Of a stretch of 20,169 bases of DNA, positions 583-20,169 are shown piece after piece (within the stretch, counting starts at the first letter, position 1; every line of letters begins with the position of its first letter). The translations under genes were made by a program, and so were the position numbers. Below the pieces are notes generated by a model. The model did not search any database and was not told the origin of the DNA. It saw only the letters and a list, made by a program, of their open reading frames with translations. Source of the stretch: a virus; the IMG/VR virus record IMGVR_UViG_3300044618_001788, positions 1 through 20,169 of that record. The stretch is one strand, 5' to 3'.

Positions 583-583
583 G

Positions 584-7156: not shown

Positions 7157-7189
7157 TTTTTGCTCCGTTGTTTGACTGTCTAAGACTCT

Positions 7190-7218
7190 ATTATATGCCC
7201 AAATTGATTTATTGTCAA
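7190..7218 (-). promoter_or_regulatory. sigma70 promoter of the 7156-5168 operon
   Basis: TTGACA (7213-7218), 17-bp spacer ATAAATCAATTTGGGCA, TATAAT (7190-7195). The TGA stop of the GIY-YIG gene (7215-7217) is inside the -35 hexamer. The shared leader element is at 7175-7189. Confidence 0.92.
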
Positions 7219-7556
7219 CCTTTTACACCGAATGTATTCAGTGCAGGTTGCAGGGTGTTAATCAATAGTGTCTCACGCTCATGTGCAGGACGCTTGCCTC
7301 GAACAACTTCTAAGGTACCAAATACAAAACGCTCGGCGCCTCGCTCACGCAAGGCACGACTCAAACCCCAATTTTTGTTTTCAGTCATAGCCCGTTGCAT
7401 ATGTTTTTGCATACGACGGCGTAGTGTCAAAAACACATTGCCTTTATATGACAATGCAGTCAGACCGATATAGTACTCAAGTGTTACTGTATCTTGGATA
7501 AAGTAAATTACTTGGTTACGATCAGTTCTACGTTTGCGGTTGATTTTCGAGTTCAT
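7215..7556 (-). CDS. GIY-YIG domain endonuclease-like protein, 113 aa
   Basis: From the ATG at 7556 the protein is 113 aa and holds a compact GIY-YIG nuclease fold. VIYFIQD and YYIGLT supply the two Tyr-containing strands, Arg residues in TLRRRMQKHM follow, and a Glu in HERETLLINTLQPALN fits the metal-binding position. It lacks a clear extra DNA-binding domain, so a free-standing homing enzyme, a repair nuclease or an anti-competitor nuclease are all possible. The longer frame (to 7643) is wrong because it reads through the promoter. The TATAAT at 7563-7568 is 6 nt from the ATG, so the mRNA should be leaderless. Confidence 0.85.
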   Translation of the reverse strand: MNSKINRKRRTDRNQVIYFIQDTVTLEYYIGLTALSYKGNVFLTLRRRMQKHMQRAMTENKNWGLSRALRERGAERFVFGTLEVVRGKRPAHERETLLINTLQPALNTFGVKG

Positions 7557-7562
7557 AAGTGT

Positions 7563-7591
7563 ATTATATACCCAAATTGATTTATTGTCAA
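7563..7591 (-). promoter_or_regulatory. sigma70 promoter, leaderless type, for the GIY-YIG gene
   Basis: TTGACA (7586-7591), 17-bp spacer ATAAATCAATTTGGGTA, TATAAT (7563-7568), six bases ACACTT, then ATG. The -35 box starts 2 nt past the stop of the 74-aa membrane gene. Confidence 0.92.
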
Positions 7592-7593
7592 CC

Positions 7594-7818
7594 TTAGAAT
7601 GCTCGGTACAAGCCAAGCAAACAGATAATAACAGAAACGACATTGACTACCATTTGTGCATTGTTGCGGACCCTGTAAGCCCATGTAAGGAAGAATACAG
7701 TTCCAAAACTGAATGCTACGATGTTGTAGGGATCCATGTTACCCATTGAGTTCAGGATGTGACCTGCTACGATGAAAACTACCCCTACCCACTGCAAAAT
7801 GTCATTTGTTTTATTCAT
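7594..7818 (-). CDS. three-helix small membrane protein, 74 aa
   Basis: From the ATG at 7818 the protein is 74 aa with three hydrophobic segments (about residues 8-22, 30-46 and 55-72) and short polar loops (SMGNMDPYN, RVRNNAQ). No family is recognised. The longer frame to 7908 would translate through the promoter and is rejected. The -10 box at 7825-7830 is 6 nt from the ATG, giving a predicted leaderless mRNA. It is a single-gene unit between two promoters. Confidence 0.78.
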   Translation of the reverse strand: MNKTNDILQWVGVVFIVAGHILNSMGNMDPYNIVAFSFGTVFFLTWAYRVRNNAQMVVNVVSVIICLLGLYRAF

Positions 7819-7824
7819 ACGTGT

Positions 7825-7853
7825 ATTATATACCCAAAACGATTTATTGTCAA
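7825..7853 (-). promoter_or_regulatory. sigma70 promoter, leaderless type, for the 74-aa membrane gene
   Basis: TTGACA (7848-7853), 17-bp spacer ATAAATCGTTTTGGGTA, TATAAT (7825-7830), six bases ACACGT, then the ATG at 7818. Confidence 0.92.
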
Positions 7854-8092: not shown

Positions 8093-8108
8093 TACTGTAA
8101 CTACAGTA
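8093..8108. promoter_or_regulatory. 7-bp-arm palindrome over a -10 box, candidate operator
   Basis: TACTGTA, AC, TACAGTA: two perfect 7-bp arms with a 2-bp centre, overlapping the -10 hexamer of the promoter at 8105-8133. The position suits repressor binding. Confidence 0.45.
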
Positions 8109-8133
8109 TAGCAGAAAATCCATTTATTGTCAA
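8105..8133 (-). promoter_or_regulatory. sigma70 promoter of the 63-aa gene
   Basis: TTGACA (8128-8133), 17-bp spacer beginning ATAAATGGATTT, TATACT (8105-8110). Confidence 0.85.
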
Positions 8134-8260: not shown

Positions 8261-8710
8261 TTATTGATTTTTCTCTAAGTATCTACGCACATCGGATAAA
8301 AGCGGTTTTTGTTTTTGTTCAACATCTAATTCCCATGGTAATTGTGAATAATGTTTATAGTCTCCAAAAGAATAACTATCAACTTTATATGAACGCTTTT
8401 TCCAAATATAAGATCCAGATCGGGTAACAGATAATAATCCAGTATGTATTTGATACAGGTGGATTAATTCATGCACTAATATTTCAACTATTTCTTCGTC
8501 AGTTAAACTGGTGTTTATACTAATTCTATTTTTAAATCTATTATCTAATGCAGTATTACCATATACTGATGGACCTAAATTAGCAAATCTAATTTGAATT
8601 TCTATAGGTAAATCTAAAAAGGTAGAAACAATATTACAAACTTTTGAAACCACTGTTTCTCTACTAAGTTTATAATCATCGTTCTCATATATAAATCTAA
8701 TATTTGGCAT
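8261..8710 (-). CDS. putative zinc metallopeptidase (HEXXH), 149 aa
   Basis: A 149-aa protein with the zinc-binding motif VHELIHLYQ (HELIH at residues 80-84) at the end of a helix. Downstream, LPWELDVE (near residue 128) can supply a third acidic ligand, as in small SprT-like or phage-type metallopeptidases where PWE follows the helix. Residues 1-70 form the N-terminal alpha/beta part. No signal peptide is present, so it acts in the cytoplasm or virion. Its ATG at 8710 overlaps the stop of the acidic protein gene by one base (TAATG). It is the last gene of the GNAT operon. Substrate unknown. Confidence 0.8.
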   Translation of the reverse strand: MPNIRFIYENDDYKLSRETVVSKVCNIVSTFLDLPIEIQIRFANLGPSVYGNTALDNRFKNRISINTSLTDEEIVEILVHELIHLYQIHTGLLSVTRSGSYIWKKRSYKVDSYSFGDYKHYSQLPWELDVEQKQKPLLSDVRRYLEKNQ

Positions 8711-8997
8711 TAATGAATCACTTGTCCTATAGATGTATTTACATATTCTTTAATATGGGCATTAAGTTCTTCTTCAGTATATCCCATTTCTCCCAACCTA
8801 ATAACTAATTCACAAAATAATCCAAAAGTTAAAGTTCCATCGACATACTTTTCATCTTCATTTTCACATTCAAACTCATCTATTTGAGGGAATAATATAT
8901 CATCGATAAACTCTTGTGCAAGATTAATGCTATGCTCAAATTGCCAAATTTCATATTCTTCTTCATCCAACTCAACTTGCGGATTTTCTTCGCTCAT
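8710..8997 (-). CDS. highly acidic hypothetical protein, 95 aa
   Basis: A 95-aa protein with a very acidic N-terminal half (EENPQVELDEEEYEIW and on through FECENEDEKY) and a helical C-terminal half. The composition recalls DNA mimics or adaptor proteins, but no family is recognised and acidity alone does not prove mimicry. The ATG at 8997 has AAGGAAT upstream and follows the GNAT stop by 1 nt. It sits between an acetyltransferase and a metallopeptidase. Confidence 0.78.
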   Translation of the reverse strand: MSEENPQVELDEEEYEIWQFEHSINLAQEFIDDILFPQIDEFECENEDEKYVDGTLTFGLFCELVIRLGEMGYTEEELNAHIKEYVNTSIGQVIH

Positions 8998-8998
8998 T

Positions 8999-9457
8999 TT
9001 ATTCCTTCATATTATTTGCTACATCAGTGTATTCGTAATTTATAGTTTCGATATTTTCTCTGAAAACAATTGCACCATTTTTTAAATGAAATCTACGTGC
9101 CATATTAGTCTTAGGGCTTAGTGTTACAAATCTATTAACACTTGGATATTGTTCTTGAATTTGTTTAACTGCACGAATTAATAATTCAGCTCCTTTACCT
9201 GCTTTATAACTCCATATAGTATAGAATACTGCGGTAGTTGGAACTTTTGCAGTATTTTTTAAATCATCTACACCAGTTGGAATAAAATCATGAAAACTAA
9301 CACATACCATTGCATCCGGGTCATCTTGATTTTCAGCAAGAGCCGCAACTATTCTACCGTCGCTTACTCTAAAATCAGTAGAAATTTCTGGACGTACAGG
9401 ATCGTCTTTAATGAAGTTCAATAATTTGTGTGTTAGGTCTGTGATAAAGTGTAGCAT
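8999..9457 (-). CDS. GNAT-family N-acetyltransferase, 152 aa
   Basis: From the ATG at 9457 the protein is 152 aa. GKGAELL (residues 87-93) fits the acetyl-CoA pyrophosphate loop at the start of helix 3, and TLSPKTNMARRFHLKNGA (112-129) fits the motif B strand and helix. VFYTIWSY (77-84) is the central strand before the loop. I recognise this arrangement from a conserved GNAT in T4-like phages. It should transfer an acetyl group to an amine, but the acceptor is unknown. The in-frame TTG at 9481 is not used because ACTAAATA, a late-type promoter box (9463-9470), lies 5 nt upstream of the ATG. It heads a three-gene operon. Confidence 0.85.
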   Translation of the reverse strand: MLHFITDLTHKLLNFIKDDPVRPEISTDFRVSDGRIVAALAENQDDPDAMVCVSFHDFIPTGVDDLKNTAKVPTTAVFYTIWSYKAGKGAELLIRAVKQIQEQYPSVNRFVTLSPKTNMARRFHLKNGAIVFRENIETINYEYTDVANNMKE

Positions 9458-9462
9458 AATGT

Positions 9463-9470
9463 TATTTAGT
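9463..9470 (-). promoter_or_regulatory. late-type promoter box (ACTAAATA) for the GNAT operon
   Basis: ACTAAATA on the minus strand, 5 nt before the ATG at 9457. The same 8-mer precedes the second TctC-like gene. It differs from TATAAATA at two bases. Confidence 0.4.
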
Positions 9471-9482
9471 ATAGGTATCAAA

Positions 9483-9503
9483 ATATGCTAATAAATAGCA
9501 TAT
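9483..9503. promoter_or_regulatory. 8-bp-arm palindrome at a divergent junction
   Basis: ATATGCTA (9483-9490), a 5-nt centre, and TAGCATAT (9496-9503). It overlaps the late-type box at 9490-9497 and the ATG at 9502. It could be an operator or a hairpin over the start codon. Confidence 0.4.
9490..9497 (+). promoter_or_regulatory. late-type promoter box (AATAAATA) for the PP-loop gene
   Basis: AATAAATA on the plus strand, 4 nt before the ATG at 9502, matching the NATAAATA form of T4-like late promoters. The transcript would be leaderless or nearly so. Confidence 0.45.
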
Positions 9504-10383
9504 GGAACATAAAACTTGGGTGTCAGGGTTAAATGGGTACAAGAAACATATCCTATCTAACAATGAGTTTATCACAATATTAACCGATTGTGAAGTCAAA
9601 AAGGACAGAGATATCACATCTATTTTCCAAGACCACATAGGGGATAGAAAGTACATAGAAGTATTATACAGTGGCGGTACTGATAGTGAACTGGTCTTAT
9701 TGACATTGCTTAAAGCAAAGATACCATTTACTGCTATTACAATGGTAATCAAAGTAGATGGGTGTATATTAAATACCCATGATTTATATTATTCTGAGAA
9801 GTTTTGTAGAGAGCATAATATTGAACAAAAGAAAATAGATTTTGATGCTGGTTCTTTTTACGGGAACGGTGACTACTTAAATTACTTGACTCCTTATAGA
9901 ATAATAGAGCCACATGTGGCTAGTCATTTTTGGTTAATAGAACAATTGAAACATCCTATTATGGGAGGTGATTGGCCTTGGGTACATAAAAGTAAAATAC
10001 AAAAAGTAATTAGTCCAAGTAGATTAGACTATTCATGTTATGAATTGTTTATGGCAGATAAGAAGATCGATGGTATTGGTAATATGATTAATCATAGTTT
10101 AGAATCAACATGCAAATTTATTCAATTACATTTAGATTGCACTGTGCAAACAAAAAAAGACCATTTAGTTAAACACAAGATGTACAGTAGTTTATATCCA
10201 TCTATTGAAAACAGAGTAAGAAGTTATGGTTGGGAAAATTGTCGTAAGAATATATTAAATATGACCGAATGTAAGATTGAATTAATTAAAAAATCTAAAA
10301 TAGTTACTCCTATAATTCAGTGGGGAGAAACTATTGCAAATATATTAGAAACAACTGAAAGAGAAAATAAGAGCTTTGTATGA
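9502..10383 (+). CDS. PP-loop ATPase (adenine nucleotide alpha hydrolase-like), 293 aa
   Basis: A 293-aa protein with the PP-loop SGGTDSE at residues 57-63, right after a hydrophobic strand (YIEVLY). A second block, IMGGDWPWV (about 153-161), occupies the position where related enzymes bind the nucleotide or Mg. It lacks a glutaminase domain and tRNA-binding additions, so it is not TilS, MnmA or QueC. The likely chemistry is adenylation of a substrate carbonyl or carboxyl, but the substrate is unknown. It has no Shine-Dalgarno; a late-type box ends 4 nt before the ATG. It overlaps the next gene by ATGA, which makes a two-gene unit with a methyltransferase-like protein. Confidence 0.82.
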   Translation: MEHKTWVSGLNGYKKHILSNNEFITILTDCEVKKDRDITSIFQDHIGDRKYIEVLYSGGTDSELVLLTLLKAKIPFTAITMVIKVDGCILNTHDLYYSEKFCREHNIEQKKIDFDAGSFYGNGDYLNYLTPYRIIEPHVASHFWLIEQLKHPIMGGDWPWVHKSKIQKVISPSRLDYSCYELFMADKKIDGIGNMINHSLESTCKFIQLHLDCTVQTKKDHLVKHKMYSSLYPSIENRVRSYGWENCRKNILNMTECKIELIKKSKIVTPIIQWGETIANILETTERENKSFV

Positions 10384-10958
10384 GTAATCCCTATGAATCA
10401 TTTTCACATGGTTTAATATCTAGCAAGATTTGGCTATGTGAAGAATTAGAAAGAACAATGTATAACAAAGGAATAGTTAATCCAGCTGTTAATATACTTG
10501 GTGCTTGGCACAACACATTAGCATTTATGATGATTGTTAGGAAGCCAAAATACTACGGGGTATTTAATTGTTATGATTTAGATAGTAACTCAATTGAAGT
10601 TGCAAATCAAATATGTGATACTTGGAAACATGAATATCCAAAAGTATATAATCATGTTGCCGATGCAGAAAAAATAGATTTCACATCTACTGGTAATGAA
10701 TCTATCTTTATCAATTGCAGTGTTGACCAGTTTGAAGGCACTGAATGGTATAATAGGATACCCAATGATCGATTAGTATGCTTACAGACAACTAATGTGA
10801 CTACTGACCAATCATTGTGGGAAATAAAGCAATCATCAAATTCAATAGTAGAATTTACTGAGAGGTACAAAGTCAGTACATTACTTTATAGCGGGCAAAA
10901 GAAAATAGAATATTATGGATTATCTTATGACCGCTATATGATGATAGGCATTAAGTAA
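10380..10958 (+). CDS. Rossmann methyltransferase-like protein, 192 aa
   Basis: A 192-aa protein. NILGAWHNTLA (residues 38-48) resembles a divergent SAM-binding motif I, and CYDLDSNSIEVAN (64-76) a motif II whose acidic residue would hold the ribose. FINCSVDQFEG (about 110-120) sits where motif IV is expected. The glycine loop is atypical, so SAM binding is likely but not certain. The gene is coupled to the PP-loop ATPase upstream (ATGA). Its stop at 10956-10958 runs past the stop of the convergent gene (10951-10953), so the two frames overlap by 8 nt and no terminator fits between them. Confidence 0.7.
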   Translation: MSNPYESFSHGLISSKIWLCEELERTMYNKGIVNPAVNILGAWHNTLAFMMIVRKPKYYGVFNCYDLDSNSIEVANQICDTWKHEYPKVYNHVADAEKIDFTSTGNESIFINCSVDQFEGTEWYNRIPNDRLVCLQTTNVTTDQSLWEIKQSSNSIVEFTERYKVSTLLYSGQKKIEYYGLSYDRYMMIGIK

Positions 10959-12141
10959 AATCTTTCATATAGTATTTTTTACTATATACACCCAATGTCC
11001 CGTAGTACGGATCGTTCTTATTAAAGACATTTGTAAAACTAGTTTTTAAATAGTTCATTGCATCAGCAAAGTTATGAGCAGATTCCCAATTCTCATCGGT
11101 AGCTTTTCTTAATAAGTTTTTAAATATTTCTTCATGACCTTCATTTTTGTATTTACTTTTACCATTTTGAATTCCTAAATTGACATTCCAGGCTGCTCCT
11201 CTGCCACATGCAATACAAAAATCATCATAGTAATCACTATGGCTATTACCGCAGTATTCTTTTAGAAAGTCATTATTTACTGAGGTAGATTTTTTAATGA
11301 TCTTGGTAGTAATAGAAAAAGTAGTGTCACTGGGTGATACGAACTTACTTGTACTGATAGGATCAATTTGTTCAGTAGTATATTCTGCGCCACCATATGT
11401 TTTCTCAATATGATTGAGAGTCATCCAACTTTGTTTTAAATGAATCTTAGGCATATCCGGTGCATAATAGAATAACTCAATATTTGGAATATCAGTGATA
11501 AATGTTTCCATTGTTTTATCAATGATAGTTGAATAGTATTTGCCATCTTCTAAAATGATTCGAGGTTTGTCTACTCCAAGTATAACACCGTGATCAGGTT
11601 CATCGGCATGCATAATCTGTTTGACATAGAAACTAAAATTAGTTGGTTGAAAGTAACCATGCACAAGAGCGGATGCAGGTTTTTCTAACCAATCATCTTG
11701 AAAATAATTATCAAATTCTTCGGGTCCTACATCAACCGTTGTTACTTTTGTATTGGGATATTTACGTAAGAAATTATGTACATGTGGATAAATCAACCTA
11801 ATTAATTCATCTTGACGCATGTGATTTGTTTTTAAGTTTAACAAAACAATTTCATCTAATGGAATGTTGAAGTAATAAAAGCATCTGAGTATATGATGAC
11901 TATCTCTACCTGCACTATAAAATAAGCTTAGTTTTTTGTATTTTTGTCTTAGTGTAATGCAACGCTCATAGCATATTTCATCCCAAGATTCTGCTGGTTC
12001 CGTAGTCCAATCAAGCTTGTCGTATTGTTCGTCATAGAAATAAAAACTAGGCATTATTCCTAATTTATTTGCCGCACGCCATGCATCAAATTGACTAGAT
12101 GTTCGTTCTCCATTAACGATCCAATGAGGTAAGTAATACAT
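10951..12141 (-). CDS. PP-loop ATPase-like protein with Cys cluster, 396 aa
   Basis: A 396-aa protein with the PP-loop variant YSAGRDSHH (residues 75-83), where AGRDS replaces the usual SGGxDS. Residues 85-200 form the rest of the Rossmann-like fold; GVILGVDKPRI (185-195) is a second conserved block. C297, C309 and C312 (the last two in CIACG) with H301 could bind a metal. This resembles sulphur-transfer or tRNA-modifying PP-loop proteins in layout but not in detail. The ATG at 12141 overlaps the TctC-like stop by one base (TAATG), so a cytoplasmic ATPase is co-translated with an exported binding protein. Substrate unknown. Confidence 0.8.
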   Translation of the reverse strand: MYYLPHWIVNGERTSSQFDAWRAANKLGIMPSFYFYDEQYDKLDWTTEPAESWDEICYERCITLRQKYKKLSLFYSAGRDSHHILRCFYYFNIPLDEIVLLNLKTNHMRQDELIRLIYPHVHNFLRKYPNTKVTTVDVGPEEFDNYFQDDWLEKPASALVHGYFQPTNFSFYVKQIMHADEPDHGVILGVDKPRIILEDGKYYSTIIDKTMETFITDIPNIELFYYAPDMPKIHLKQSWMTLNHIEKTYGGAEYTTEQIDPISTSKFVSPSDTTFSITTKIIKKSTSVNNDFLKEYCGNSHSDYYDDFCIACGRGAAWNVNLGIQNGKSKYKNEGHEEIFKNLLRKATDENWESAHNFADAMNYLKTSFTNVFNKNDPYYGTLGVYSKKYYMKDFT

Positions 12142-13031
12142 TATTTTCCTGAAAATTGTTTAACCATTTTTACAATATCATTTGTTGATAAAAATACAGG
12201 ATGGGAGCTATTTGCTTCTAACTTCTGTATCACATCATTATCTTTACCACATGTATGTATTGCTTTAACTATCATGCTACGAGTGTCTTTATCTACTGAT
12301 GGTTGTACACTAAGTATCAATCCCAATCCAATCGGTGACTTTGATAACTTAGAACTGTATACACCTACGTTAGAGTGATTAAATTTGGTTGCGTATGTTT
12401 TATCAAAAGTGCTTGTCATTATATGTATTCTATTTGCCTCTACTAGAGGTCTTGCTCCAATAAAGGTATCGACAAACAAGTCTAAGTTTCCATTAACAAC
12501 GTCGGTTAATCCACCAACACTAGACTTGTAGGGCACAATTTGAAACTGTGCATTCATGTCTTTAAATATAGTTTCTGTTAAGAATGTTCCTGATGCGGAA
12601 GGAGAACCTATATTAATAATTCTTCCTTTAGATTCAGTAACCAATTCGTCTAAAGATTTGTATTTACCTGACTTAGCTACAAATACTAGTGGTGTCGAGT
12701 TCATATATACTAACGGATTTATATCTTCTAGTAAATCAACACCGGGAAACTTGCTTAATGTGTTTAACCCAAAGTTACCCATAAGTAAATGCGTAGTTGT
12801 GTCTGTATCCTGTGCGGCCTGCAATGCTTTGATAGCAACTAGTCCTTCTGCTCCAGGCTTGTATTCTTTCAATACATTAATGTTTTGTTTCTTTAAACAA
12901 GGTGCATAAGTCTCGATACTTACATCAGAACCAGATCCTGGACCGCTTGATAGAATAAATTTAAAAGTGTGAGTTTGTGAGTTTGCCAATGTTGCAACCA
13001 ATGCAACCATTAACATTAAGATAGTTTTCAT
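12141..13031 (-). CDS. TctC/Bug-type periplasmic solute-binding protein, 296 aa
   Basis: Starting at the ATG at 13031 gives a classic signal peptide, MKTILMLMVALVATLANS, with likely cleavage near residue 18. The mature protein follows the Bug/TctC fold: FILSSGPGSGSD (binding-loop region), MNSTPLVFVAKSGKYKSLDE (domain 1 hinge region) and GSPSASGTFL. In bacteria this family binds carboxylates such as citrate, nicotinate or amino acids and feeds tripartite TctAB permeases. No permease gene is here, so a host permease would be needed. A Shine-Dalgarno AGAGGAAAT precedes the ATG. The frame upstream to 13079 is rejected because it crosses the TATAAATA box. The usual PGG is varied to GPGSGSD. Confidence 0.85.
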   Translation of the reverse strand: MKTILMLMVALVATLANSQTHTFKFILSSGPGSGSDVSIETYAPCLKKQNINVLKEYKPGAEGLVAIKALQAAQDTDTTTHLLMGNFGLNTLSKFPGVDLLEDINPLVYMNSTPLVFVAKSGKYKSLDELVTESKGRIINIGSPSASGTFLTETIFKDMNAQFQIVPYKSSVGGLTDVVNGNLDLFVDTFIGARPLVEANRIHIMTSTFDKTYATKFNHSNVGVYSSKLSKSPIGLGLILSVQPSVDKDTRSMIVKAIHTCGKDNDVIQKLEANSSHPVFLSTNDIVKMVKQFSGK

Positions 13032-13051
13032 CAATATTTCCTCTAGACACA

Positions 13052-13063
13052 TATTTATAAATA
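13052..13063. promoter_or_regulatory. overlapping divergent T4-type late promoter boxes (TATAAATA)
   Basis: The 12-mer TATTTATAAATA holds TATAAATA on both strands: 13052-13059 read leftward to the TctC-like gene (20 nt before its ATG) and 13056-13063 read rightward to the oxygenase gene (7 nt before its ATG). This is the exact T4 late -10 sequence in both directions. Confidence 0.65.
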
Positions 13064-13070
13064 AGAAAGC

Positions 13071-13646
13071 ATGAGACAAATTAATTTAATAAACCACCCT
13101 TTCGTACACAATGCAATCATTGAGATTAGTGATCTAACCGACTTGCCTATACCAATTAATCCAGTGTATGACACTTCAACCGGGTATAACAATGTGTATG
13201 CCGACGGTGGTAGAGAAAGGGCATATAATTGGGATAACAAAGAAGAATCTATAGAGTATTTTACTAGATTATTCAAAGAAGATATTATACCCAAATTTTA
13301 CAGTAACAAATTGTTCACGAATGATTATGGTACAGTAACGTGTGAACAATTATTGCGTAACATTGATATTGCTGTGGGAGTAGTAAAAGATGCGCCTACA
13401 TGGGATCAACACGTACATGAAGATTGTAGGACAATGATATGTGCCGGATTAATACATTTACAAGATACTGATCGGGGCACACAGTTTCACGGTAATAACA
13501 CTGATAAAGTTAGATACACTGCCCCTAGTAAAAAATTATCAGGCTCAGCTTGGGCTAATATGGCACATTCATTTCACAGTGTTGGTAAGGGAGAGAAAGA
13601 AAGGTACGCCTATTTAATTAGCGTAATGTGGAAGCTAGTATTATAA
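13071..13646 (+). CDS. 2OG-Fe(II) oxygenase-like protein, 191 aa
   Basis: A 191-aa protein with a prolyl-4-hydroxylase-like double-stranded beta helix. HVHEDCR (residues 114-120, iron ligands H116 and D118) begins the core. GLIHLQDTDRGTQF (126-139) is the middle strand region typical of this class in phages. AHSFHSV (165-171, H166 or H169) supplies the third iron ligand, and R178 in GEKERY would bind 2-oxoglutarate. Target (protein, nucleic acid or small molecule) is unknown. There is no Shine-Dalgarno; the late box is 7 nt from the ATG. It is divergent from the TctC-like gene. Confidence 0.8.
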   Translation: MRQINLINHPFVHNAIIEISDLTDLPIPINPVYDTSTGYNNVYADGGRERAYNWDNKEESIEYFTRLFKEDIIPKFYSNKLFTNDYGTVTCEQLLRNIDIAVGVVKDAPTWDQHVHEDCRTMICAGLIHLQDTDRGTQFHGNNTDKVRYTAPSKKLSGSAWANMAHSFHSVGKGEKERYAYLISVMWKLVL

Positions 13647-13740
13647 AGCTCACTTTAGATTTCCGAGTAGCGAATTCGTACATCAACCCAGCAGCCGGGT
13701 TCACACTTATAACGCAAAGGTCCTAAGGTAGTGTGATCTT
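13646..13740. other. structured intergenic segment with tRNA-like fold potential
   Basis: Between convergent genes. AAGCTCAC (13646-13653) can pair with GTGATCTT (13733-13740) with one mismatch. Inside lies a 5-bp stem with a 7-nt loop (AACCC 13685-13689, GGGTT 13697-13701) and a CACACT/AGTGTG stem (13702-13707, 13730-13735) that competes with the outer stem. GGTCCTAAGGTAG (13719-13731) equals a piece of a conserved 23S rRNA helix. It lacks U33 and a T-arm, so it is not a standard tRNA. It may be a bidirectional terminator or an RNA. Confidence 0.4.
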
Positions 13741-14422
13741 ACCAAGAATTGTCAGTCAGTTCTAGTTGATGACTTTCAAATCTCTTTAATCTATTTATAA
13801 ATTCTGTAGTTCGTTCAGTTATAATACCAGTTAACTGGAATGTTACTCTAGGGTTATGTCCTGCATTCGCAGTAGAGTGAGGCATGTTCTGCCAATCAAA
13901 TGTCGTAACATCTCCTGCACGCCATTGCTGATGTAAGTAATTACCGTAACTCCAAAAATGACCTTGTTCCCAATCAGTCAACGCAACTTGAACACGCATG
14001 ACTGTCCAAGGTGCATCAGGTGCCCACTTCTCTAATTTGTCTAAATGCAGATTCCAAACTTCACCGGGCTTTTGCACATGTATGCGTTCCATACAATCAT
14101 CTAATGCAAACAATTCAGTAATCTTTTTTAAGTTAGGAGTTATCTGCCAATTCAAATGTGTAATCTGATAGTCTTTTCCATAGCCAAACTTTTCTAAATC
14201 ATAATCTTCGCTTGCTAATTCTTCTTCAGGTCTAGTCTTACCTACTTTACCACGTGTGCGCCAAGTCGCAGGCTTAGCTGTCTCTATTGCATGTTTAACA
14301 TCTTCACTATAGTCAGCAGTAATTTTACCAAGTCTAATTACTTTATCGACCTGTGAATCATTTTTGAAGTTATCAAAATGATACTTACTTTTTTGTTTGC
14401 TTTGATCCCAACTGCTTATCAT
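13739..14422 (-). CDS. 2OG-Fe(II) oxygenase (aspartyl/asparaginyl hydroxylase-like), 227 aa
   Basis: A 227-aa protein with the cupin-type iron site HLD (H126, D128), a distal His in MPHSTANAG (H182) and an Arg two residues after HN (R192) for 2-oxoglutarate. This order, HxD then H then R about 10 residues later, fits the aspartyl/asparaginyl beta-hydroxylase group. Residues 1-110 are an N-terminal extension without known motifs. It overlaps the sulfotransferase-like gene by ATGA and is last in the TctC2 operon. It is a second oxygenase of a different subtype from the one at 13071, so the two probably have different substrates. Confidence 0.8.
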   Translation of the reverse strand: MISSWDQSKQKSKYHFDNFKNDSQVDKVIRLGKITADYSEDVKHAIETAKPATWRTRGKVGKTRPEEELASEDYDLEKFGYGKDYQITHLNWQITPNLKKITELFALDDCMERIHVQKPGEVWNLHLDKLEKWAPDAPWTVMRVQVALTDWEQGHFWSYGNYLHQQWRAGDVTTFDWQNMPHSTANAGHNPRVTFQLTGIITERTTEFINRLKRFESHQLELTDNSW

Positions 14423-15039
14423 ATTACTGTTACCTTTACATTTGATGCACCGTAGCTTTGAAAGTAGTCACTAGGTGGTAGTTCTATATTTAGTGCCTCA
14501 CATAGGTCATTATTAGTTAATGGGTTACAATTCTTATACTTGTATGTTGCCTTGATAATACCTTGATTCTGTTCTTTAATCTTAGTAGCCATTACTTTCA
14601 AGTTCTGATAGTATTCACTATAGTCAGGGTATGTAATATCAAAATGCCCGCACTTTACCCACCATCCTAAACAAGCATCATCGGGACGATGTACTAGTAT
14701 GATCGGGCAATCAGGCCATGTTTCTTTGATGTAGTCAATGTGATTACTAAACACATGAGACTTGATGATGCGGACACCTTCTCCATTGAATGGTTCATCA
14801 AAGTCACGTTCTAATGTTTCTTTGTCATACATTGGAAGTCTATGAAAGAACTTACCAAACTCCATGCCAGGATCGTAGTATGCACCTAAATGCATCAATT
14901 CCATTTTGCCACTAGCATCATGGTAATATGTTCTACTATCACTATAATCAGATTGGTCTACGCTAGGGCTATAGTAAATGTTCTTTACTACGCTACTCCA
15001 TTTACTGCCAGGAGCTCCTGCTACGAATATATATTTCAA
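14419..15039 (-). CDS. sulfotransferase-like P-loop protein, 206 aa, TTG start
   Basis: From a TTG at 15039 the protein is 206 aa and begins with strand KYIFVAGAPGSKWSS, whose GAPGSKWSS (residues 8-16) fits the 5'-phosphosulfate-binding loop of PAPS-dependent sulfotransferases. IIKSH (about 92-96) and IILVHRPDD (114-122) fit the second strand and the 3'-phosphate-binding region. There is no ATG near the start: the TTG overlaps the stop of the TctC2 gene (TTGA), so translation is probably coupled. The usual RxxxxxS 3'-binding Ser is not obvious, so activity is uncertain. A GTP or ATP-binding role is the alternative. Confidence 0.75.
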   Translation of the reverse strand: MKYIFVAGAPGSKWSSVVKNIYYSPSVDQSDYSDSRTYYHDASGKMELMHLGAYYDPGMEFGKFFHRLPMYDKETLERDFDEPFNGEGVRIIKSHVFSNHIDYIKETWPDCPIILVHRPDDACLGWWVKCGHFDITYPDYSEYYQNLKVMATKIKEQNQGIIKATYKYKNCNPLTNNDLCEALNIELPPSDYFQSYGASNVKVTVI

Positions 15040-15989
15040 GGTGTAATCTTCTTTGCTATTTGAATCCAATCTCTGCGTAATAGTGCCATACTAGCATGGA
15101 CACCTTCTGGAGAATGTTCTCTAGTAGTTATGAACATTAAATTCTCATCAAATTTTTCTTTTGCTTCCTTGCTACGAATTGCAGGTACAAAGTTATCGTG
15201 ATACCATTTTTGTATTTCAGGACTTGTGCCTTTTGGTAACACTAAGTTCCAGCAACCGTATAGATTAAGACCGGGCGCATACTTACTCATTAATGGCGCA
15301 GACTCTAGACCTTTAAGTGGCACTTCGCTTGCCAGTCCGATAAGCTTTAATTTACCTGCTTTAACGTGGGGATAGCCTACACCAACTGGGGTGACAGCAA
15401 ACTCAGCATGACCTCCCATAACATCTAATAGTGCTTGTGCTGGTCCTTTGTACATAGCAGTTTGAACCTTATCGCCACCGGGTACATTTAGTTTTGTAGT
15501 TAAGTATTCAACGGCTAACTTGTGTCCGCCTCCACCAATCGCAAAGTTGATAGGGCGTTTCTTTTCACGTATCTCTCTAATCAAATCTTCAGGTGTATTC
15601 ACTTTACTATTGGGATTAGCCCAGAATGCTAAAGGGCTACGTGCTATATTAGCAACTGGTTCAAAGTCATATATGTTATACTTTAACATTTGTGGATACC
15701 AAACTTCAGCAGTAATCCATTGACTATTACAAGCAGGAACTGCAACAGTATGACCGTCATTTGGAACAGTATTGAAATGGTTCATTGCTATGTTACCGTC
15801 TGCTCCTGCACGGTGTTCTCTTGTAAAAGTTACCCCTGTTTTTTTGTTTACTATATCTGCTACAAAGAAAAATGATATCTCATTACCTGCTCCCGGGCCA
15901 TTTGGGAATATAACTGTAATGGGTTTTGTTGGTTGCCAAGCAAATGCAACTAGTGGTATAAATGCTAACAATGCTAAAAGTTTTTTCAT
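15036..15989 (-). CDS. TctC/Bug-type periplasmic solute-binding protein, 317 aa
   Basis: A 317-aa protein with a signal peptide, MKKLLALLAFIPLVAFA, cleaved before WQPTKPI. The mature part follows the Bug/TctC family closely: ITVIFPNGPGAGNE (binding loop), VTFTREHRAGADGNIAMN, and a C-terminal GVHASMALLRRDWIQIAKKI helix. It is the more typical of the two binding proteins here. The family captures carboxylates for tripartite permeases; none is encoded nearby. A strong GGAGGA Shine-Dalgarno precedes the ATG at 15989. A late-type box (ACTAAATA, 16022-16029) lies 32 nt upstream. It heads an operon with the sulfotransferase-like and oxygenase genes. Confidence 0.88.
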   Translation of the reverse strand: MKKLLALLAFIPLVAFAWQPTKPITVIFPNGPGAGNEISFFFVADIVNKKTGVTFTREHRAGADGNIAMNHFNTVPNDGHTVAVPACNSQWITAEVWYPQMLKYNIYDFEPVANIARSPLAFWANPNSKVNTPEDLIREIREKKRPINFAIGGGGHKLAVEYLTTKLNVPGGDKVQTAMYKGPAQALLDVMGGHAEFAVTPVGVGYPHVKAGKLKLIGLASEVPLKGLESAPLMSKYAPGLNLYGCWNLVLPKGTSPEIQKWYHDNFVPAIRSKEAKEKFDENLMFITTREHSPEGVHASMALLRRDWIQIAKKITP

Positions 15990-16001
15990 CAGTCCTCCAA
16001 G

Positions 16002-16009
16002 AATAAATA
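16002..16009 (+). promoter_or_regulatory. late-type promoter box (AATAAATA) for the methyltransferase gene
   Basis: AATAAATA on the plus strand, 39 nt before the ATG at 16049, in the divergent gap with the TctC2 gene. It matches the NATAAATA form. Confidence 0.4.
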
Positions 16010-16021
16010 TGATGTGACAAT

Positions 16022-16029
16022 TATTTAGT
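16022..16029 (-). promoter_or_regulatory. late-type promoter box (ACTAAATA) for the TctC2 operon
   Basis: ACTAAATA on the minus strand, 32 nt before the ATG at 15989. It is the same 8-mer as before the GNAT gene, with two differences from TATAAATA. Confidence 0.4.
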
Positions 16030-16048
16030 CCATCTTACAAAAAATCAT

Positions 16049-16777
16049 ATGAATACTAAAATTTTTAAGCTTTTACAAGAAAATTTGCAACTTGCGTTTA
16101 ATTTACCCAAGTATTCCAAAATTTCTATTACTAAGGATACTATCGTACAAGACCTACCTTGGACACCCGCACGATATAGCAAATTCAAAGAGGCAGTAGA
16201 AGCTGAATTGCATTTGCCATGTGACTACACAGGGACATTGATTGACATTACTAATGATTTGTCAGAACGTTATATCTTGCGTTTCTTTAGTGAGATATGG
16301 AAACCAAGAACAGGTGATTATGAACATACTGGATGGGAACTTGCAGATGAGATTAACAAACTAAATCCAGAGAAGGTTCTTGATGTTGGTTGCGGATATC
16401 ATCCCTTCAAGGGTCGTATTCAAAACATCATTGGTATCGATCCATACAACAACTGTGCTGACTATGAAGTTGATATATTAGAGTACAAAGTAAAACCAGA
16501 AAGCCATGATGTAATTATAGCATTAGGTAGTATTAACTTTAATAGCAAGGATGAGATTGAAACACGATTCAGTCATTGTATAAATCTGTTGAAGAATAAT
16601 GGAAAATTCTATCTACGTGCTAACCCTGGTATACCTCATAAGACAGGACCTTATGTTGATATCTTCCCTTGGACTTTTGAAGTCGTAAATGAGTTTGCTG
16701 AAAAATACAATCTTAATTTAGATACGTTTAAAAAAGATGCCAACGATAGATTGTATTTTGTTTACACAAAACGATAG
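16049..16777 (+). CDS. class I SAM methyltransferase with ACP-like N-terminus, 242 aa
   Basis: The C-terminal two thirds is a class I methyltransferase: motif I VLDVGCGYH (residues 110-118), motif II IIGIDPYN (about 127-134), motif IV VIIALGSINF, and a post-motif ANPGIPHKTGPY. The N-terminal 75 residues follow the spacing of an acyl carrier protein: DTIVQDL (30-36), then YSKFKEAVEAELHLPCDY, then GTLIDITNDL. The Ser that carries phosphopantetheine would align with P40, so it cannot be loaded in the usual way. The gene is divergent from the TctC2 operon and ends at a strong terminator. The substrate is unknown; a role on a carrier-bound or small-molecule intermediate is possible. Confidence 0.82.
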   Translation: MNTKIFKLLQENLQLAFNLPKYSKISITKDTIVQDLPWTPARYSKFKEAVEAELHLPCDYTGTLIDITNDLSERYILRFFSEIWKPRTGDYEHTGWELADEINKLNPEKVLDVGCGYHPFKGRIQNIIGIDPYNNCADYEVDILEYKVKPESHDVIIALGSINFNSKDEIETRFSHCINLLKNNGKFYLRANPGIPHKTGPYVDIFPWTFEVVNEFAEKYNLNLDTFKKDANDRLYFVYTKR

Positions 16778-16782
16778 CCGAA

Positions 16783-16808
16783 AAAATAGACCCCGAAGGG
16801 TCTATTTT
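16783..16808. terminator. bidirectional hairpin terminator between convergent genes
   Basis: AAAATAGACCC (16783-16793), tetraloop CGAA, GGGTCTATTTT (16798-16808): a perfect 11-bp stem. On the plus strand it ends in TTTT, on the minus strand in a run of six T. It serves the methyltransferase gene (+) and the metallophosphoesterase gene (-), whose stop codon it overlaps. Confidence 0.92.
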
Positions 16809-17409
16809 ACATTGTGGGTCCGTTCCCACTACGCATACCAACTGTTCCACCTTCTGCTTCGATTCGTTTGATAACGTCCTCGAATAAGATAGGAGTAAAA
16901 TCAGTTTGCTCAACACATACACAATGATAACGTACATCGTTTTCAGTACTGTATAATGTTGCACCTGTCTTAGCATCGATTCCCCTAGCCTTCTTCACTC
17001 TGTTAGAATGTAAGTGACCGTGAATGTTAACACCAAAACGACCTAACGATGCTTCATGTAACGGGATGTGACTTAAAATCATTCCGTTCATTACATGATA
17101 TGCACGTAATTCTCTAAAGTACATTCTATACTCATCATCACGAAAAATGTCATGGTTGCCACGAATTAAAACCTTGTCACCGTTTAAGCGGCTTAATGTC
17201 TTTAAAGACTTGCGGTTAATGACAACATCACCTAAGTGATATACTTTATCGTTTGGACGTACTGTATCGTTCCAACGCTTAATCATTTCCTCATCCATTT
17301 CATCTGGATCAGTCCATGGACGAATCTTAGTAACACCGTCTGCTTCTGTGAATCTACACACTCCGGCATGACCAAAGTGTGTGTCACTTGTTAAAAATAC
17401 TGCTGGCAT
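16807..17409 (-). CDS. calcineurin-like metallophosphoesterase, 200 aa
   Basis: A 200-aa protein with the full metal-site series: SDTHFGH (residues 8-14), GDVV (60-63), GNHD (84-87), LSHIPLH (112-118) and GHLHS (131-135). It fits small bacterial/phage phosphoesterases that hydrolyse phosphodiesters or phosphomonoesters; some act on cyclic nucleotides or RNA ends. The specificity cannot be read from the sequence. The ATG at 17409 overlaps the stop of the 75-aa gene by one base, with AGAGGG upstream. It is last in the operon that starts with the dual-specificity-phosphatase-like gene and ends at the bidirectional terminator. Confidence 0.88.
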   Translation of the reverse strand: MPAVFLTSDTHFGHAGVCRFTEADGVTKIRPWTDPDEMDEEMIKRWNDTVRPNDKVYHLGDVVINRKSLKTLSRLNGDKVLIRGNHDIFRDDEYRMYFRELRAYHVMNGMILSHIPLHEASLGRFGVNIHGHLHSNRVKKARGIDAKTGATLYSTENDVRYHCVCVEQTDFTPILFEDVIKRIEAEGGTVGMRSGNGPTM

Positions 17410-17636
17410 TATACCCTCTCTTTCTTTACTCTACCTATTCGGCTAGCTTTGTTCCAATCGTATGCAACACCATCTGGACATAGACCGTCTACTACACTGT
17501 CAACTCCAAACATACCACACACTTCAAAGTCTATACCTTTGATGGATACAAACTCATTCATCTTCTTTGCCAAGAACATTGCATCATCTAATGAATATAC
17601 TTCATATTCTGCATTCTTGCCTATTACTTTAAACAT
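17409..17636 (-). CDS. small hypothetical protein, 75 aa
   Basis: A 75-aa soluble protein starting MFKVIGKNAEYEVYSLDDAM, with a strand-helix opening, two Cys residues and a basic C-terminal tail (RIGRVKKERV). No family is recognised. The ATG at 17636 has AAAGGAAT upstream, and the stop overlaps the metallophosphoesterase start (TAATG). Its tight coupling to the phosphoesterase suggests a linked role. Confidence 0.75.
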   Translation of the reverse strand: MFKVIGKNAEYEVYSLDDAMFLAKKMNEFVSIKGIDFEVCGMFGVDSVVDGLCPDGVAYDWNKASRIGRVKKERV

Positions 17637-17645
17637 ATTATTCCT

Positions 17646-17954
17646 TTACGCAACCATCCAGTGGTCGTTTTCTTTGTATTCGATGGATTCACTTCCATCA
17701 TATTCATTTACTTTAAACAATGTACCTTCTGGTATCCATTCTACTTCCAAGTCTGTCATGCCACCTTTGTAGATTTCAGGATACTTCAGTGTTACATATG
17801 TATCTAATTCAGCCCACTTTTTGTTCTCAACAAATTTTACGATTGCTGGGTCAAAAAGTATTTCAGGAGTATCATAGTTCCATGTGTACCATCCTGCACC
17901 GAAGCCAGGACTGTACAACACTGCTACCTTTCCATCTTCAATTAACTTGTTCAT
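17646..17954 (-). CDS. conserved phage hypothetical protein, 102 aa
   Basis: A 102-aa protein with an N-terminal block VAVLYSPGFGAGWYTWNY (residues 10-27), then a helix (PAIVKFVENKKW) and a C-terminal beta segment (EGTLFKVNEYDGSESIEY). I recall similar phage proteins that share the SPGFGAGW block; function unknown. The ATG at 17954 overlaps the phosphatase-like stop by ATGA. Confidence 0.78.
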   Translation of the reverse strand: MNKLIEDGKVAVLYSPGFGAGWYTWNYDTPEILFDPAIVKFVENKKWAELDTYVTLKYPEIYKGGMTDLEVEWIPEGTLFKVNEYDGSESIEYKENDHWMVA

Positions 17955-18415
17955 TCTATACTCTTAAAAGTTCGCCAATCATCAACGTTTGGCTTTTCAT
18001 CTTCATCATAAGTCCAACCCAGTGCCTTCATCATGCGATGCTTGACTAGCAAGTTAGGGCTACGGAATCTTCCCGTATCTTCAAAGCCCATCATCACACC
18101 AACTTCACACACTGCACCACTACGGCAGATACCTGCATAGCAATGGACAACTACATTCATCCTGTTGTCTTTTGCATGTTGCAACAGTCGGACTAATTCG
18201 TTTGCTTGCTCCTGACTGCAACGCATTGCCTCGTCAAGAACCACATCATTTTTTTCAACGTCCAAGAATTCAAAATTGTGAATCTCTTTGAACTTGTGAG
18301 CGGGAACGGGTCTCCAACTTGCCGGGTCAACAATGCTAATCAGCATACTATTCTCACCGGCTTCGTGATGAAACCTAGTTGGTATATCTGCCGCCGCTAC
18401 GTTTTCAATCCACAT
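17951..18415 (-). CDS. dual-specificity/tyrosine phosphatase-like protein, 154 aa
   Basis: From the ATG at 18415 the protein is 154 aa. The active-site P-loop HCYAGICRS (residues 91-99) matches HCxxGxxRS of Cys-based phosphatases, with the strand MNVVVH before it. DEAMRCSQEQANELVRLL (about 61-78) is the helix ahead of the loop. A general-acid Asp is probable in the loop around residue 55 but not certain. It could act on phosphoproteins, nucleotides or RNA 5' ends. The longer frame to 18445 would begin upstream of the -10 box. Shine-Dalgarno AAGGAG lies 6 nt upstream. It heads a four-gene operon with a metallophosphoesterase. Confidence 0.83.
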   Translation of the reverse strand: MWIENVAAADIPTRFHHEAGENSMLISIVDPASWRPVPAHKFKEIHNFEFLDVEKNDVVLDEAMRCSQEQANELVRLLQHAKDNRMNVVVHCYAGICRSGAVCEVGVMMGFEDTGRFRSPNLLVKHRMMKALGWTYDEDEKPNVDDWRTFKSIE

Positions 18416-18436
18416 TTCTAACTCCTTAATATTAGT

Positions 18437-18465
18437 ATTATACATCCAAACTGATTTATTGTCAA
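18437..18465 (-). promoter_or_regulatory. sigma70 promoter of the phosphatase operon
   Basis: TTGACA (18460-18465), 17-bp spacer ATAAATCAGTTTGGATG, TATAAT (18437-18442). It is a copy of the promoter family otherwise confined to 1-8.1 kb. Confidence 0.92.
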
Positions 18466-18479
18466 ATTTTAGATATGGG

Positions 18480-18507
18480 AAAAGGTCTGAGCATTTCTAC
18501 TCAGACC
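18480..18507 (-). terminator. terminator of the TROVE gene
   Basis: GGTCTGAG (18484-18491) pairs with CTCAGACC (18500-18507), an 8-bp stem with an 8-nt loop. On the minus strand it is followed by TTTTCCC (T run at 18480-18483). It lies 19 nt beyond the TROVE stop. Confidence 0.85.
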
Positions 18508-18525
18508 CTTTAGGGGGTTAGCACT

Positions 18526-19941
18526 TTAACATGCGTAACGATAGCTCATGATGGTCTTCATCATGATGCCTTCTGGAGTGAACTCAGAAGGATCAGCACC
18601 TAGCAAGCTTGCCATGATGCTTGGGCTAAAGCCAGAGACTAGAGCCGCACCAGACTTGTCTGCCTTGACAGGGGCGTTACCGCTACTGTTCAAGTTCCAG
18701 AACACTACGCTAGGCGCAGTGTAGCCTGCTTCTGCATACTTGCGTTGGATCATTTCCATTGCAGAATCATCGTGGGTTACACATTGATTGAACTGCATGT
18801 CAGAAAGGATCAACAACATCTTAGGCATGTCGCTTTCAGGAACAGAGTTCTTGACCGCAACACTTAGGATCTTGTCCATAGCCTTGTGCAAGTTAGTGTC
18901 CATTGCCCAAGTGGAGTTAACCATTTGGTTGATCTTCTGAACGATAGTACCCTTTAGAGTAACTAGTTCAGGAGTACCACTGAAGGTCAAGAATGTGTCC
19001 TTGAACGCACCCTTGTTCTTGTCAGCTAGGTAAAGACCAAGCGATACACTAACGTCCAAACATGTTACACTACCAGTTCCGCCTGCTGGGCAAGACATAG
19101 AACCAGATACGTCTACCAATGGTAGAATGTTTGCATCGTTCATGTAGTTAGGCAATGCATCCCATTGTGCAGTCACGTGATCCAATTCGGTCTTACCCAA
19201 AGTAGAACGGCCGTACGCAGAGATTAAACCCTTCAAGACTTCATGAGGGAACACTGCCGAAGCATTGACCTTCACAGTCTTGTCACCACTGACCAACTTA
19301 GCAACATATTCTGCGAATGTTACAGAATGACGGTTGAACGCCTTCTTGTAGATTCGTGATGCCTGTGAAGGCACATGTGAATAGTTGATGTTGTCCCAAT
19401 CGTTAGCACACATTTGTGTTTCAACAACCTTAGTCATTGCCACAAGTGTCTTACGATATTGCTTAGGACTCATACCGAAGAATTCACGGATTTCACGTGC
19501 TACTTCACCCTTACGAGGAGTCCACTTTGCGGCTAAGCCGTTCTTTGCACGAAGGTTGTCACCTAGCAAAGAATATGCCTTAGCCTTAAGATCCTTGTCC
19601 TTAAAGACAAACAAGTCATCGAAACGACCTACTTCAGGAATCTTAACTAGCAAACGTGCTGCCGCTTCTGGGTCATGCTTTTCCAAGTATGACAAGATAT
19701 CACGGAACAGTTGACGTTCACCTGCACCACCACGTGCATCACGTGCCCACAAAGCCACACGCAAAGCGAGGTCCTTGTCTTGCACATAAGCCGCAGTGAA
19801 TGCTGGGATAATGTTCTTACCACGGCTTGCGCCGATGTTGTAGAATAGATCAACCACTGAGTTAGCGGTTGACTTACGAGCCTTCATACCGTTTGTAGTA
19901 CGGGCTTCTTGATTTGCGATTGCGTTTACAAATGCGTTCAT
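18526..19941 (-). CDS. TROVE/vWA (Ro60-like) RNA-binding protein, 471 aa
   Basis: A 471-aa protein with an N-terminal HEAT-like TROVE region (about residues 20-255) including ALWARDARGGAGERQLF (63-79), the family's hallmark block, and GRFDDLFVF (105-113). A von Willebrand A domain follows (about 270-465) with the MIDAS motif DVSGSMS (277-283). Ro60/Rsr proteins form rings that bind Y RNAs and misfolded RNAs and assist RNA decay or repair. The best match in detail is the TROVE/DUF2828 type. Its codon use looks more GC-rich than its neighbours, suggesting transfer or strong expression. The ATG at 19941 has AGAGGT upstream. The gene has its own terminator. Confidence 0.85.
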   Translation of the reverse strand: MNAFVNAIANQEARTTNGMKARKSTANSVVDLFYNIGASRGKNIIPAFTAAYVQDKDLALRVALWARDARGGAGERQLFRDILSYLEKHDPEAAARLLVKIPEVGRFDDLFVFKDKDLKAKAYSLLGDNLRAKNGLAAKWTPRKGEVAREIREFFGMSPKQYRKTLVAMTKVVETQMCANDWDNINYSHVPSQASRIYKKAFNRHSVTFAEYVAKLVSGDKTVKVNASAVFPHEVLKGLISAYGRSTLGKTELDHVTAQWDALPNYMNDANILPLVDVSGSMSCPAGGTGSVTCLDVSVSLGLYLADKNKGAFKDTFLTFSGTPELVTLKGTIVQKINQMVNSTWAMDTNLHKAMDKILSVAVKNSVPESDMPKMLLILSDMQFNQCVTHDDSAMEMIQRKYAEAGYTAPSVVFWNLNSSGNAPVKADKSGAALVSGFSPSIMASLLGADPSEFTPEGIMMKTIMSYRYAC

Positions 19942-20023
19942 TTTATTTACCTCTCAGAATGTGTTTTGTTTTCAGATATTGGTTGAAATTTAAATTTGCT
20001 GTTAACATTCTATGTCTCTAGCA

Positions 20024-20142
20024 GGATGAGTGAAACGGTTAAGTTTATTTTCTGGTCTACCTCATCCCCTGTATATCGGTTCAGTTTCGTAGACCCTATC
20101 AACAATTCATGTTGACTATCTAGTAATTGTGTCTGCTACTAG
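20024..20142. ncRNA. candidate structured RNA beside the TROVE gene
   Basis: The non-coding stretch 19942-20169 holds several perfect inverted repeats: GGATGAG (20024-20030) with CTCATCC (20061-20067); GGTCTAC (20054-20060) with GTAGACC (20089-20095); TCAACA (20099-20104) with TGTTGA (20110-20115); CTAGTA (20120-20125) with TACTAG (20137-20142). The first two are interleaved and could form a pseudoknot or switch between two folds. No open frame covers it. A Y-RNA-like partner of the TROVE protein is an inference from position. Strand is not determined, and no promoter was seen. Confidence 0.4.
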
Positions 20143-20169
20143 CAACATACAAAGTCTTTCCAATGTGTC

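Follow-up and report, generated by a model that had tools for sequence, protein, structure and literature searches.

In a viral fragment of 20,169 bases (IMG/VR record IMGVR_UViG_3300044618_001788; hereafter, the window), we identified a core of four genes, which encode a class I S-adenosylmethionine (SAM) methyltransferase-like protein (MT2), an exported binding protein of the tripartite tricarboxylate (Bug) type (TctC_a), a sulfotransferase-like P-loop protein (ST), and a 2-oxoglutarate (2OG)/Fe(II) oxygenase-like protein (OxyA). Several distinct phage backbones, some of them on contigs of 260-525 kb, share the order MT2(-)/TctC_a-ST-OxyA, and the core genes co-occur more often than expected by chance. 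These are genuine, intact genes on which purifying selection is strong, with dN/dS of 0.02-0.11 for each gene tested against its nearest relatives (0.02-0.04 for TctC_a). We propose, with a probability of about 40%, that they belong to an auxiliary metabolic cassette of the phage that would import a small acid and tailor it, with sulfation as a central step. Several of the component classes are already known as phage auxiliary genes; new here is a recurring, swappable linked set in large uncultured aquatic phages.

A four-gene core on several phage backbones

Relatives of five window proteins were taken from viral contigs and reduced to 92 distinct contigs. Linkage was counted around OxyA genes with at least 3.5 kb of upstream DNA, contigs found by several queries being pooled, and in an independent scan with MT2 only. 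Both scans list best matches only, so that the fractions apply among near relatives. Among the matches listed, ST was found near all 50 OxyA genes, TctC near 47, and MT2 near 43. The MT2 scan yielded 55 distinct loci among the matches listed, with TctC or the TctC-like c101 within 4.5 kb in 54/55, ST in 47/55, OxyA in 46/55, and TctC, ST, and OxyA together in 42/55. The three OxyA loci without TctC (L135, L139, and L141) carry one gene for a TctA permease and another for an exported protein that is TctC-like by eye and gave no Pfam TctC match.

The initial annotation had placed the four core genes, together with three PP-loop ATPases, a second binding protein, a second oxygenase, and a second methyltransferase-like protein, in a single cassette. 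That grouping did not hold: the cassette consists of several units, of which MT2 and TctC_a-ST-OxyA (window 13739-16777) are the core. TctC_b-PP3 is an add-on pair, TctC_b adjoining PP3 in most PP3 contigs. PP2-MT1 is a backbone unit that occurs without the cassette in L024, L025, L027, and L028, and OxyP4 is sporadic, being confined to the window family plus a 34% relative in L014. PP1, contained in few contigs, is separate and lies ~7 kb away in unrelated backbone sequence. Repeated co-occurrence, which the same annotation had named as the sign of a system, was thus found for the core, in the same order on several backbones, and for PP3 with TctC_b, not for the PP1 of the window or OxyP4, with PP2-MT1 separable.

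The add-on genes and the core are movable. A close relative (L024) shares the window backbone at 82-89% DNA identity and contains an empty site, aligning to window 8439-10958 and 16768-20169 with ends 30 nt apart. Therefore, the site between MT1 and MPE has either the entire PP3-to-MT2 block or none of it, with PP2-MT1 retained.

All open reading frames previously named in the window were found intact at their positions (Table 1), except for the start of ST. We set this start at the TTG at 15039, not 15069; in the sequence TTGA, it overlaps the TctC_a stop by 4 nt, and it matches the start in nearly all relatives. Overlaps of 4 nt also join ST-OxyA and PP2-MT1, and a 1-nt overlap joins TctC_b-PP3; therefore, these pairs, like TctC_a-ST, look translationally coupled. 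No Rfam families were found in the window.

Table 1. Genes of the core, its add-ons, and the backbone units discussed in the text, with positions in the window
Feature	Position	Strand	Description
PP1	2258-3418	-	Stand-alone asparagine-synthetase-C-like PP-loop protein; outside the core
PP2	9502-10383	+	PP-loop ATPase, SGG(T/L/S/M)DS; backbone unit with MT1
MT1	10380-10958	+	Methyltransferase-like by eye; backbone unit, outside the core
PP3	10951-12141	-	Ligase-like PP-loop protein (HUP fold), ATP-dependent; SAGRDS motif
TctC_b	12141-13031	-	Second exported TctC protein (predicted)
OxyP4	13071-13646	+	Second 2OG-oxygenase-like protein; sporadic member
OxyA	13739-14422	-	2OG/Fe(II) oxygenase-like protein; core
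ST	14419-15039	-	Sulfotransferase-like P-loop protein; core
TctC_a	15036-15989	-	Exported (predicted) tripartite-tricarboxylate (Bug-type) binding protein; leads the core operon
MT2	16049-16777	+	Class I SAM-methyltransferase-like; divergent from the TctC_a-ST-OxyA operon
Movable block, PP3 to MT2	10959-16767	no strand	Missing in close relative L024

Properties of the encoded proteins

TctC_a and TctC_b are TctC/Bug receptors and are predicted from their sequences to be exported. Both match PF03401 over most of the domain and above the Pfam cut-off of 27 bits (TctC_a, E=8.6e-22, 78.4 bits; TctC_b, E=2.6e-9, 37.5 bits), in agreement with the initial annotation, and both have hydrophobic N-termini that read as signal peptides with AFA and ANS cleavage-type ends. 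The signal peptide of TctC_a is MKKLLALLAFIPLVAFA; TctC_b probably starts with the ATG at 13031, which gives the N-terminus MKTILMLMVALVATLANS. A PDB profile search identified Bug27, BugD, and the terephthalate-binding protein among the solved relatives of TctC_a (E down to 4e-25). In the bacterial genomes searched, strong TctC matches to TctC_a reached at most 29% identity, and the search of genome contigs with the TctC_a profile gave one match, at 26%.

The predicted model of ST (pLDDT 92) supports a sulfotransferase P-loop fold, as had been proposed for this protein. Its best VIA-align match was human tyrosylprotein sulfotransferase-1 (Z 11.5, 3.6 Å, 166 residues), followed by other sulfotransferases, and adenylate kinases scored below it at Z 9; taken by itself, Foldseek found nothing below E 0.01. 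Identity to sulfotransferase folds is 12-14%. In the ST family, 11/31 members match PF13469 at E<=0.05 (best E 1.9e-5), H105 and R128 are invariant in 31/31, and K103-S104 are conserved in at least 90% of the 31. By analogy with SULT enzymes, these residues would fit the catalytic K-x-H and the Arg that binds the 3'-phosphate. The P-loop protein c28, considered as a close paralogue of ST, was rejected given that hhalign offered no support. In the uncultured marine virus AG-345-D19 (L156:3352-10102), two ST relatives are located directly behind a gene for a 1615-aa repetitive tail-fibre-like protein; the record set of this virus includes a psbA-like gene (L155:6543-7625).

Two iron/2OG oxygenases had been proposed. 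For OxyA, the HxD...H...R residues (H126, D128, H182, and R192) are invariant in 29/29 relatives and correspond to the iron triad and the 2OG-binding Arg; for OxyP4, the same motif was read by eye and Pfam gave no match. Asp_Arg_Hydrox (PF05118) was a weak signal, found in 1/29 OxyA members at E 0.02. Kinship of OxyA with AspH, LpxO, or proline hydroxylases was not supported, the hhalign alignments being in register and not significant, nor was an AtsK-like alkylsulfatase, which matched at noise level (E 0.2).

In MT2, one of two proteins annotated as SAM methyltransferase-like, the motifs DVGCG and GIDP are invariant in 19/19 relatives, and CmoB and Methyltransf_25 match weakly, below their cut-offs. 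MT2 also carries a conserved N-terminal extension of ~80 aa; an acyl-carrier-like domain, suggested by eye, was dropped after a PDB profile search found nothing. For MT1, the methyltransferase pattern was read by eye only, with neither a Pfam nor a PHROG match. Its apparent relatives in L122 and L135 are cytidine-deaminase-like proteins pulled in by single linkage, and MT1 counts were therefore not used.

The three PP-loop motifs noted before, SGGIDS in PP1, SGGTDS in PP2, and SAGRDS in PP3, were confirmed, with SGG.DS invariant in 17/17 relatives of PP2 and S-x-G-x-D-S in 13/13 relatives of PP3. PP3 is a PP-loop (HUP fold) ligase-like protein, as judged from its predicted model: the PP-loop half matches NadE, GMP synthetase, and LarE (Foldseek probability 0.97-1.00), and in VIA-align beta-lactam synthetase was at the top (Z 8.7), within a range of Z 8.0-8.7 for beta-lactam synthetase, NadE, and GMP synthetase. 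The PP3 and PP2 profiles align across the PP-loop (hhalign 62%). No TilS, QueC, or MnmA profile was matched above its cut-off: PP2 matched QueC and ATP_bind_3 weakly (QueC, 12.7 bits vs a cut-off of 22), and PP3 gave no such match. We also rejected queuosine, TilS, or MnmA-type tRNA modification, for which profiles scored far below cut-off and no further pathway genes were found in the cassette. PP1 carries both asparagine-synthetase-type motifs, SGGIDS and GHGGDEFAG, as read in the window and few relatives, and matches Asn_synthase and asn_synth_AEB weakly.

Several other features of the window and related contigs were observed. Beside PP2-MT1, and conserved there, window 8999-9481 matches the malonyl-CoA decarboxylase C-terminal domain (PF05292, E=9e-8) and probably encodes a GNAT-fold acetyltransferase. 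On the minus strand, about nine copies of a promoter-like element, TTGACAATAAAT...TATAATA, are scattered across the backbone (window 521-588, 715-782, 1449-1516, 1968-1997, 7157-7224, 7530-7597, 7814-7853, 8104-8133, and 18404-18471), with no copy within the 9.5-16.8 kb cassette region and similar copies in L024, L025, and L028. Window 18526-19941 encodes a TROVE/vWA-like protein (DUF2828 and DUF7788), perhaps a phage-encoded RNA-binding protein of the Ro60 type. In another contig (L067:16261-17814), a 517-aa protein near a DNA polymerase gene (cluster c16, 21 members) contains a TGT-like GDSGGFQ motif by eye and might be a DNA-deazaguanine enzyme; Pfam and PHROG gave no match for it.

A possible import-and-tailoring pathway and its rivals

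Under the import-and-tailoring proposal, exported TctC_a (and TctC_b) would capture a small carboxylate-like molecule in the periplasm and deliver it to a permease of the TctA type, supplied by the host or, in some relatives, by the phage itself. The enzymes would then act in the cytoplasm: ST would transfer sulfate from 3'-phosphoadenosine 5'-phosphosulfate (PAPS) to the imported molecule, OxyA would hydroxylate it, MT2 would methylate it, and PP3 (with PP2 in the window lineage) could activate the carboxylate with ATP and form an amide or similar bond. We infer the use of PAPS, the order of the reactions, the identity of the imported molecule with the substrate of the enzymes, and a benefit to the phage.

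Genes added in relatives are consistent with this proposal. The operon of L135, L139, and L141 includes a TctA permease gene (PF01970, E=2.6e-84), which in L102 lies close to TctC-ST; a class-I glutaminase gene, c26 (PF07722), is found inside the operon in about ten contigs. Further operon neighbours are the second P-loop protein c28 and a diiron-oxygenase-like protein, c56 (weak AurF). In many contigs, c29, a fusion of an adenylylsulfate (APS) kinase-like half and a nucleotidylyltransferase half, is located downstream of OxyA; the closest solved structures to its N-terminal half are adenylylsulfate kinases. In its own scan, c29 was also found outside the cassette, among the matches listed, several times beside a clear sulfotransferase, n4 (PF13469, E=2.5e-17), and with RCC1-repeat or other repeat genes nearby. 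The c29 gene of L102 overlaps a gene for a Sulfotransfer_2 protein immediately upstream of TctA. The placement of c29 beside clear sulfotransferases and the L102 arrangement are the best indirect evidence for the sulfation theme. A Cj1415-1417-type phosphoramidate pathway, prompted by the best NCBIfam match of the glutaminase and by the kinase/nucleotidylyltransferase fusion, was rejected (72.8 bits vs a cut-off of 250; the nucleotidylyltransferase half looks NMNAT-like).

Diverged versions of the set also recur. In L086/L087, PP3-like, PP2-like, MT2-like, two desaturase-like, and four sulfotransferase-like genes occur together with TctC, though in another order, and this grouping connects PP2 and PP3 with the theme of the cassette; in L086, the PP2-like homologue (hhalign 96.6%) lies beside the PP3-like gene. 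The dense cluster of L086 (2-10915), which also includes a Rieske oxygenase, looks like a fuller biosynthetic cluster. In L088/L089, PP1-like genes (27-28% identity to PP1) adjoin TctC, c56, and glutaminase genes. The suggestion of the initial annotation that the genes synthesize or decorate a specific molecule stays plausible and is strengthened by the TctA permease, glutaminase, and APS kinase of relatives.

A bolder extension, possible and rather doubtful, is that the pathway is exclusive to phages, with infected cells importing a specific small molecule via the phage-encoded receptor and turning it, by sulfation, hydroxylation, methylation, and amide linkage, into a new compound that would serve the phage, and with related phages rebuilding the same logic from other enzymes (Rieske or diiron-oxygenase-like proteins, desaturases, and extra sulfotransferases).

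Several observations weigh against import and tailoring. The window contains no APS kinase, and neither TctA nor TctB was seen in its 20 kb, TctA being present in relatives such as L135 and L102. The ST of the window scores 17.3 bits with PF13469, under the cut-off of 27, has a glycine where the usual Lys/Arg of the 5'-phosphosulfate-binding (5'-PSB) loop follows the proline, and also resembles nucleotide kinases (Z 8-9). Profile and hhalign comparisons assigned OxyA to no known family of oxygenases beyond its motif, and the PP3 model is of low confidence (pLDDT 56). Furthermore, the role of TctC could be limited to binding or signalling, and linkage indicates joint selection, not necessarily one shared pathway.

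The main rival, which we consider somewhat unlikely, is surface or virion decoration: through sulfation, hydroxylation, and methylation, the ST, OxyA, and methyltransferase proteins would alter a polymer of the host envelope or a tail protein of the phage and thereby block superinfection or tune adsorption, TctC proteins being periplasmic accessories. Decoration of this kind would fit the best structural match of ST, a protein-tyrosine sulfotransferase, the position of the two ST relatives behind the tail-fibre-like gene of AG-345-D19, and the occurrence elsewhere of the APS-kinase fusion, often beside a sulfotransferase, behind tail-fibre-like repeat proteins including RCC1-repeat genes. However, the window cassette lies away from tail genes, among accessory or DNA polymerase/clamp-type genes, and the near-obligate TctC, the TctA permease, and the PP-loop ligases would be left unexplained.

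Related gene pairs were noted in other contigs. A clear sulfotransferase is encoded next to the APS-kinase fusion gene in L246 (1045-1866, with neighbours) and in L234, L239, L244, L247, L251, and L258. These pairs are often found behind repeat proteins resembling tail fibres or adhesins, and might sulfate virion adhesins. In a large phage (L214:3777-5267), a NodU-type carbamoyltransferase (PF02543/PF16861) is encoded near the APS-kinase fusion and SGNH-hydrolase-like genes.

Nutrient scavenging, in which TctC would boost the uptake of organic acids or sulfonates, and OxyA and ST would release or rearrange sulfur or carbon for phage replication, appears unlikely. The presence of TctC together with TctA in relatives, the candidate auxiliary genes for a 2OG oxygenase and TctA in SUP05 viruses (PMC4164917), and the very weak match of OxyA to AtsK (E 0.2) are compatible with it. 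The AtsK match is, however, at noise level, sulfotransferases add rather than remove sulfate, and the style of the PP-loop ligases, the methyltransferases, and the glutaminase is that of biosynthesis.

It is improbable that the region is a loose hotspot, where unrelated useful genes gathered at one insertion point share no pathway. Although OxyP4, TctC_b, PP3, c26, c28, and c29 are variably present, PP2-MT1 and PP1 can be separated from the rest, and one relative has an empty site, the four-gene core is kept with its start/stop overlaps across several backbones and the diverged set recurs rearranged in L086/L087. A module for anti-phage defence or counter-defence, to which a movable cassette in a variable region would be suited, is highly improbable, since exported binding proteins fit it poorly and PADLOC defence models gave no match to the cassette (DNA phosphorothioation or a known defence was rejected on this ground) besides a weak one of MT2 to mad2 (E 1e-5).

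Distribution and comparison with known systems

The OxyA and ST profiles gave no match in a set of 274 bacterial genomes, all from a single class and chosen around a betaproteobacterial metagenome-assembled genome, with no positive control in the set, and no OxyA relatives were found in genome contigs. Among 50,697 GenBank phage records, there was no match to OxyA or PP3; the matches found were weak and mainly in AG-345-D19, which accounted for all ST matches and also gave one to MT2. No described phage system matching the linked set was found in these records or in the literature searched, as the initial annotation had anticipated.

For years, sulfotransferase, 2OG oxygenase, and TctA genes have appeared singly in lists of phage auxiliary genes, with no function assigned. 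Here, a periplasmic receptor is coupled with sulfotransferase-like and oxygenase-like enzymes in a conserved operon; this provides a defined protein set to test jointly, and the ligand of TctC_a could name the substrate and open up the remaining proteins. The set also suggests that sulfation chemistry is widespread among large phages of aquatic habitats.

In SUP05 viruses, a 2OG-Fe(II) oxygenase and tctA have been reported as candidate auxiliary metabolic genes (PMC4164917). These viruses resemble the phage contigs described here in combining a 2OG oxygenase with a component of a tripartite tricarboxylate transporter; however, theirs are listed as separate genes, with tctA assigned by domain match only, whereas here a conserved multi-gene operon includes TctC, ST, and MT2. 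The available text on OM43 phages, which are likewise aquatic, reports the same enzyme classes, namely, a PF13469 sulfotransferase, a 2OG oxygenase, GATase, and MPE, and calls the function of phage sulfotransferases unclear (PMC10580990); unlike the cassette genes, the OM43 genes are not reported as linked in that text, which contains no mention of TctC.

With the TctC/Bug proteins of tripartite tricarboxylate transporters (BugD, Bug27, and the terephthalate-binding protein), the receptors share PF03401, a predicted signal peptide, and, in some relatives, TctA in the operon. They differ in their identity of at most 29% to strong bacterial TctC, in the overlap coupling to sulfotransferase-like and oxygenase-like genes, and in that neither TctA nor TctB was seen in the window. 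Tyrosylprotein and bacterial sulfotransferases (STF9, curacin ST, and Cpz8) are the best fold matches of ST, with the K-S-H and 3'-side Arg positions conserved, but ST, whose likeness is known from a predicted model, is 12-14% identical, shorter, and altered in the 5'-phosphosulfate loop. Finally, PP3 appears to share the HUP fold and the PP-loop motif with AsnB, beta-lactam synthetase, GMP synthetase, and LarE, from which it is set apart by the absence of a glutaminase domain, the unusual SAGRDS, and the lack of a close family member.

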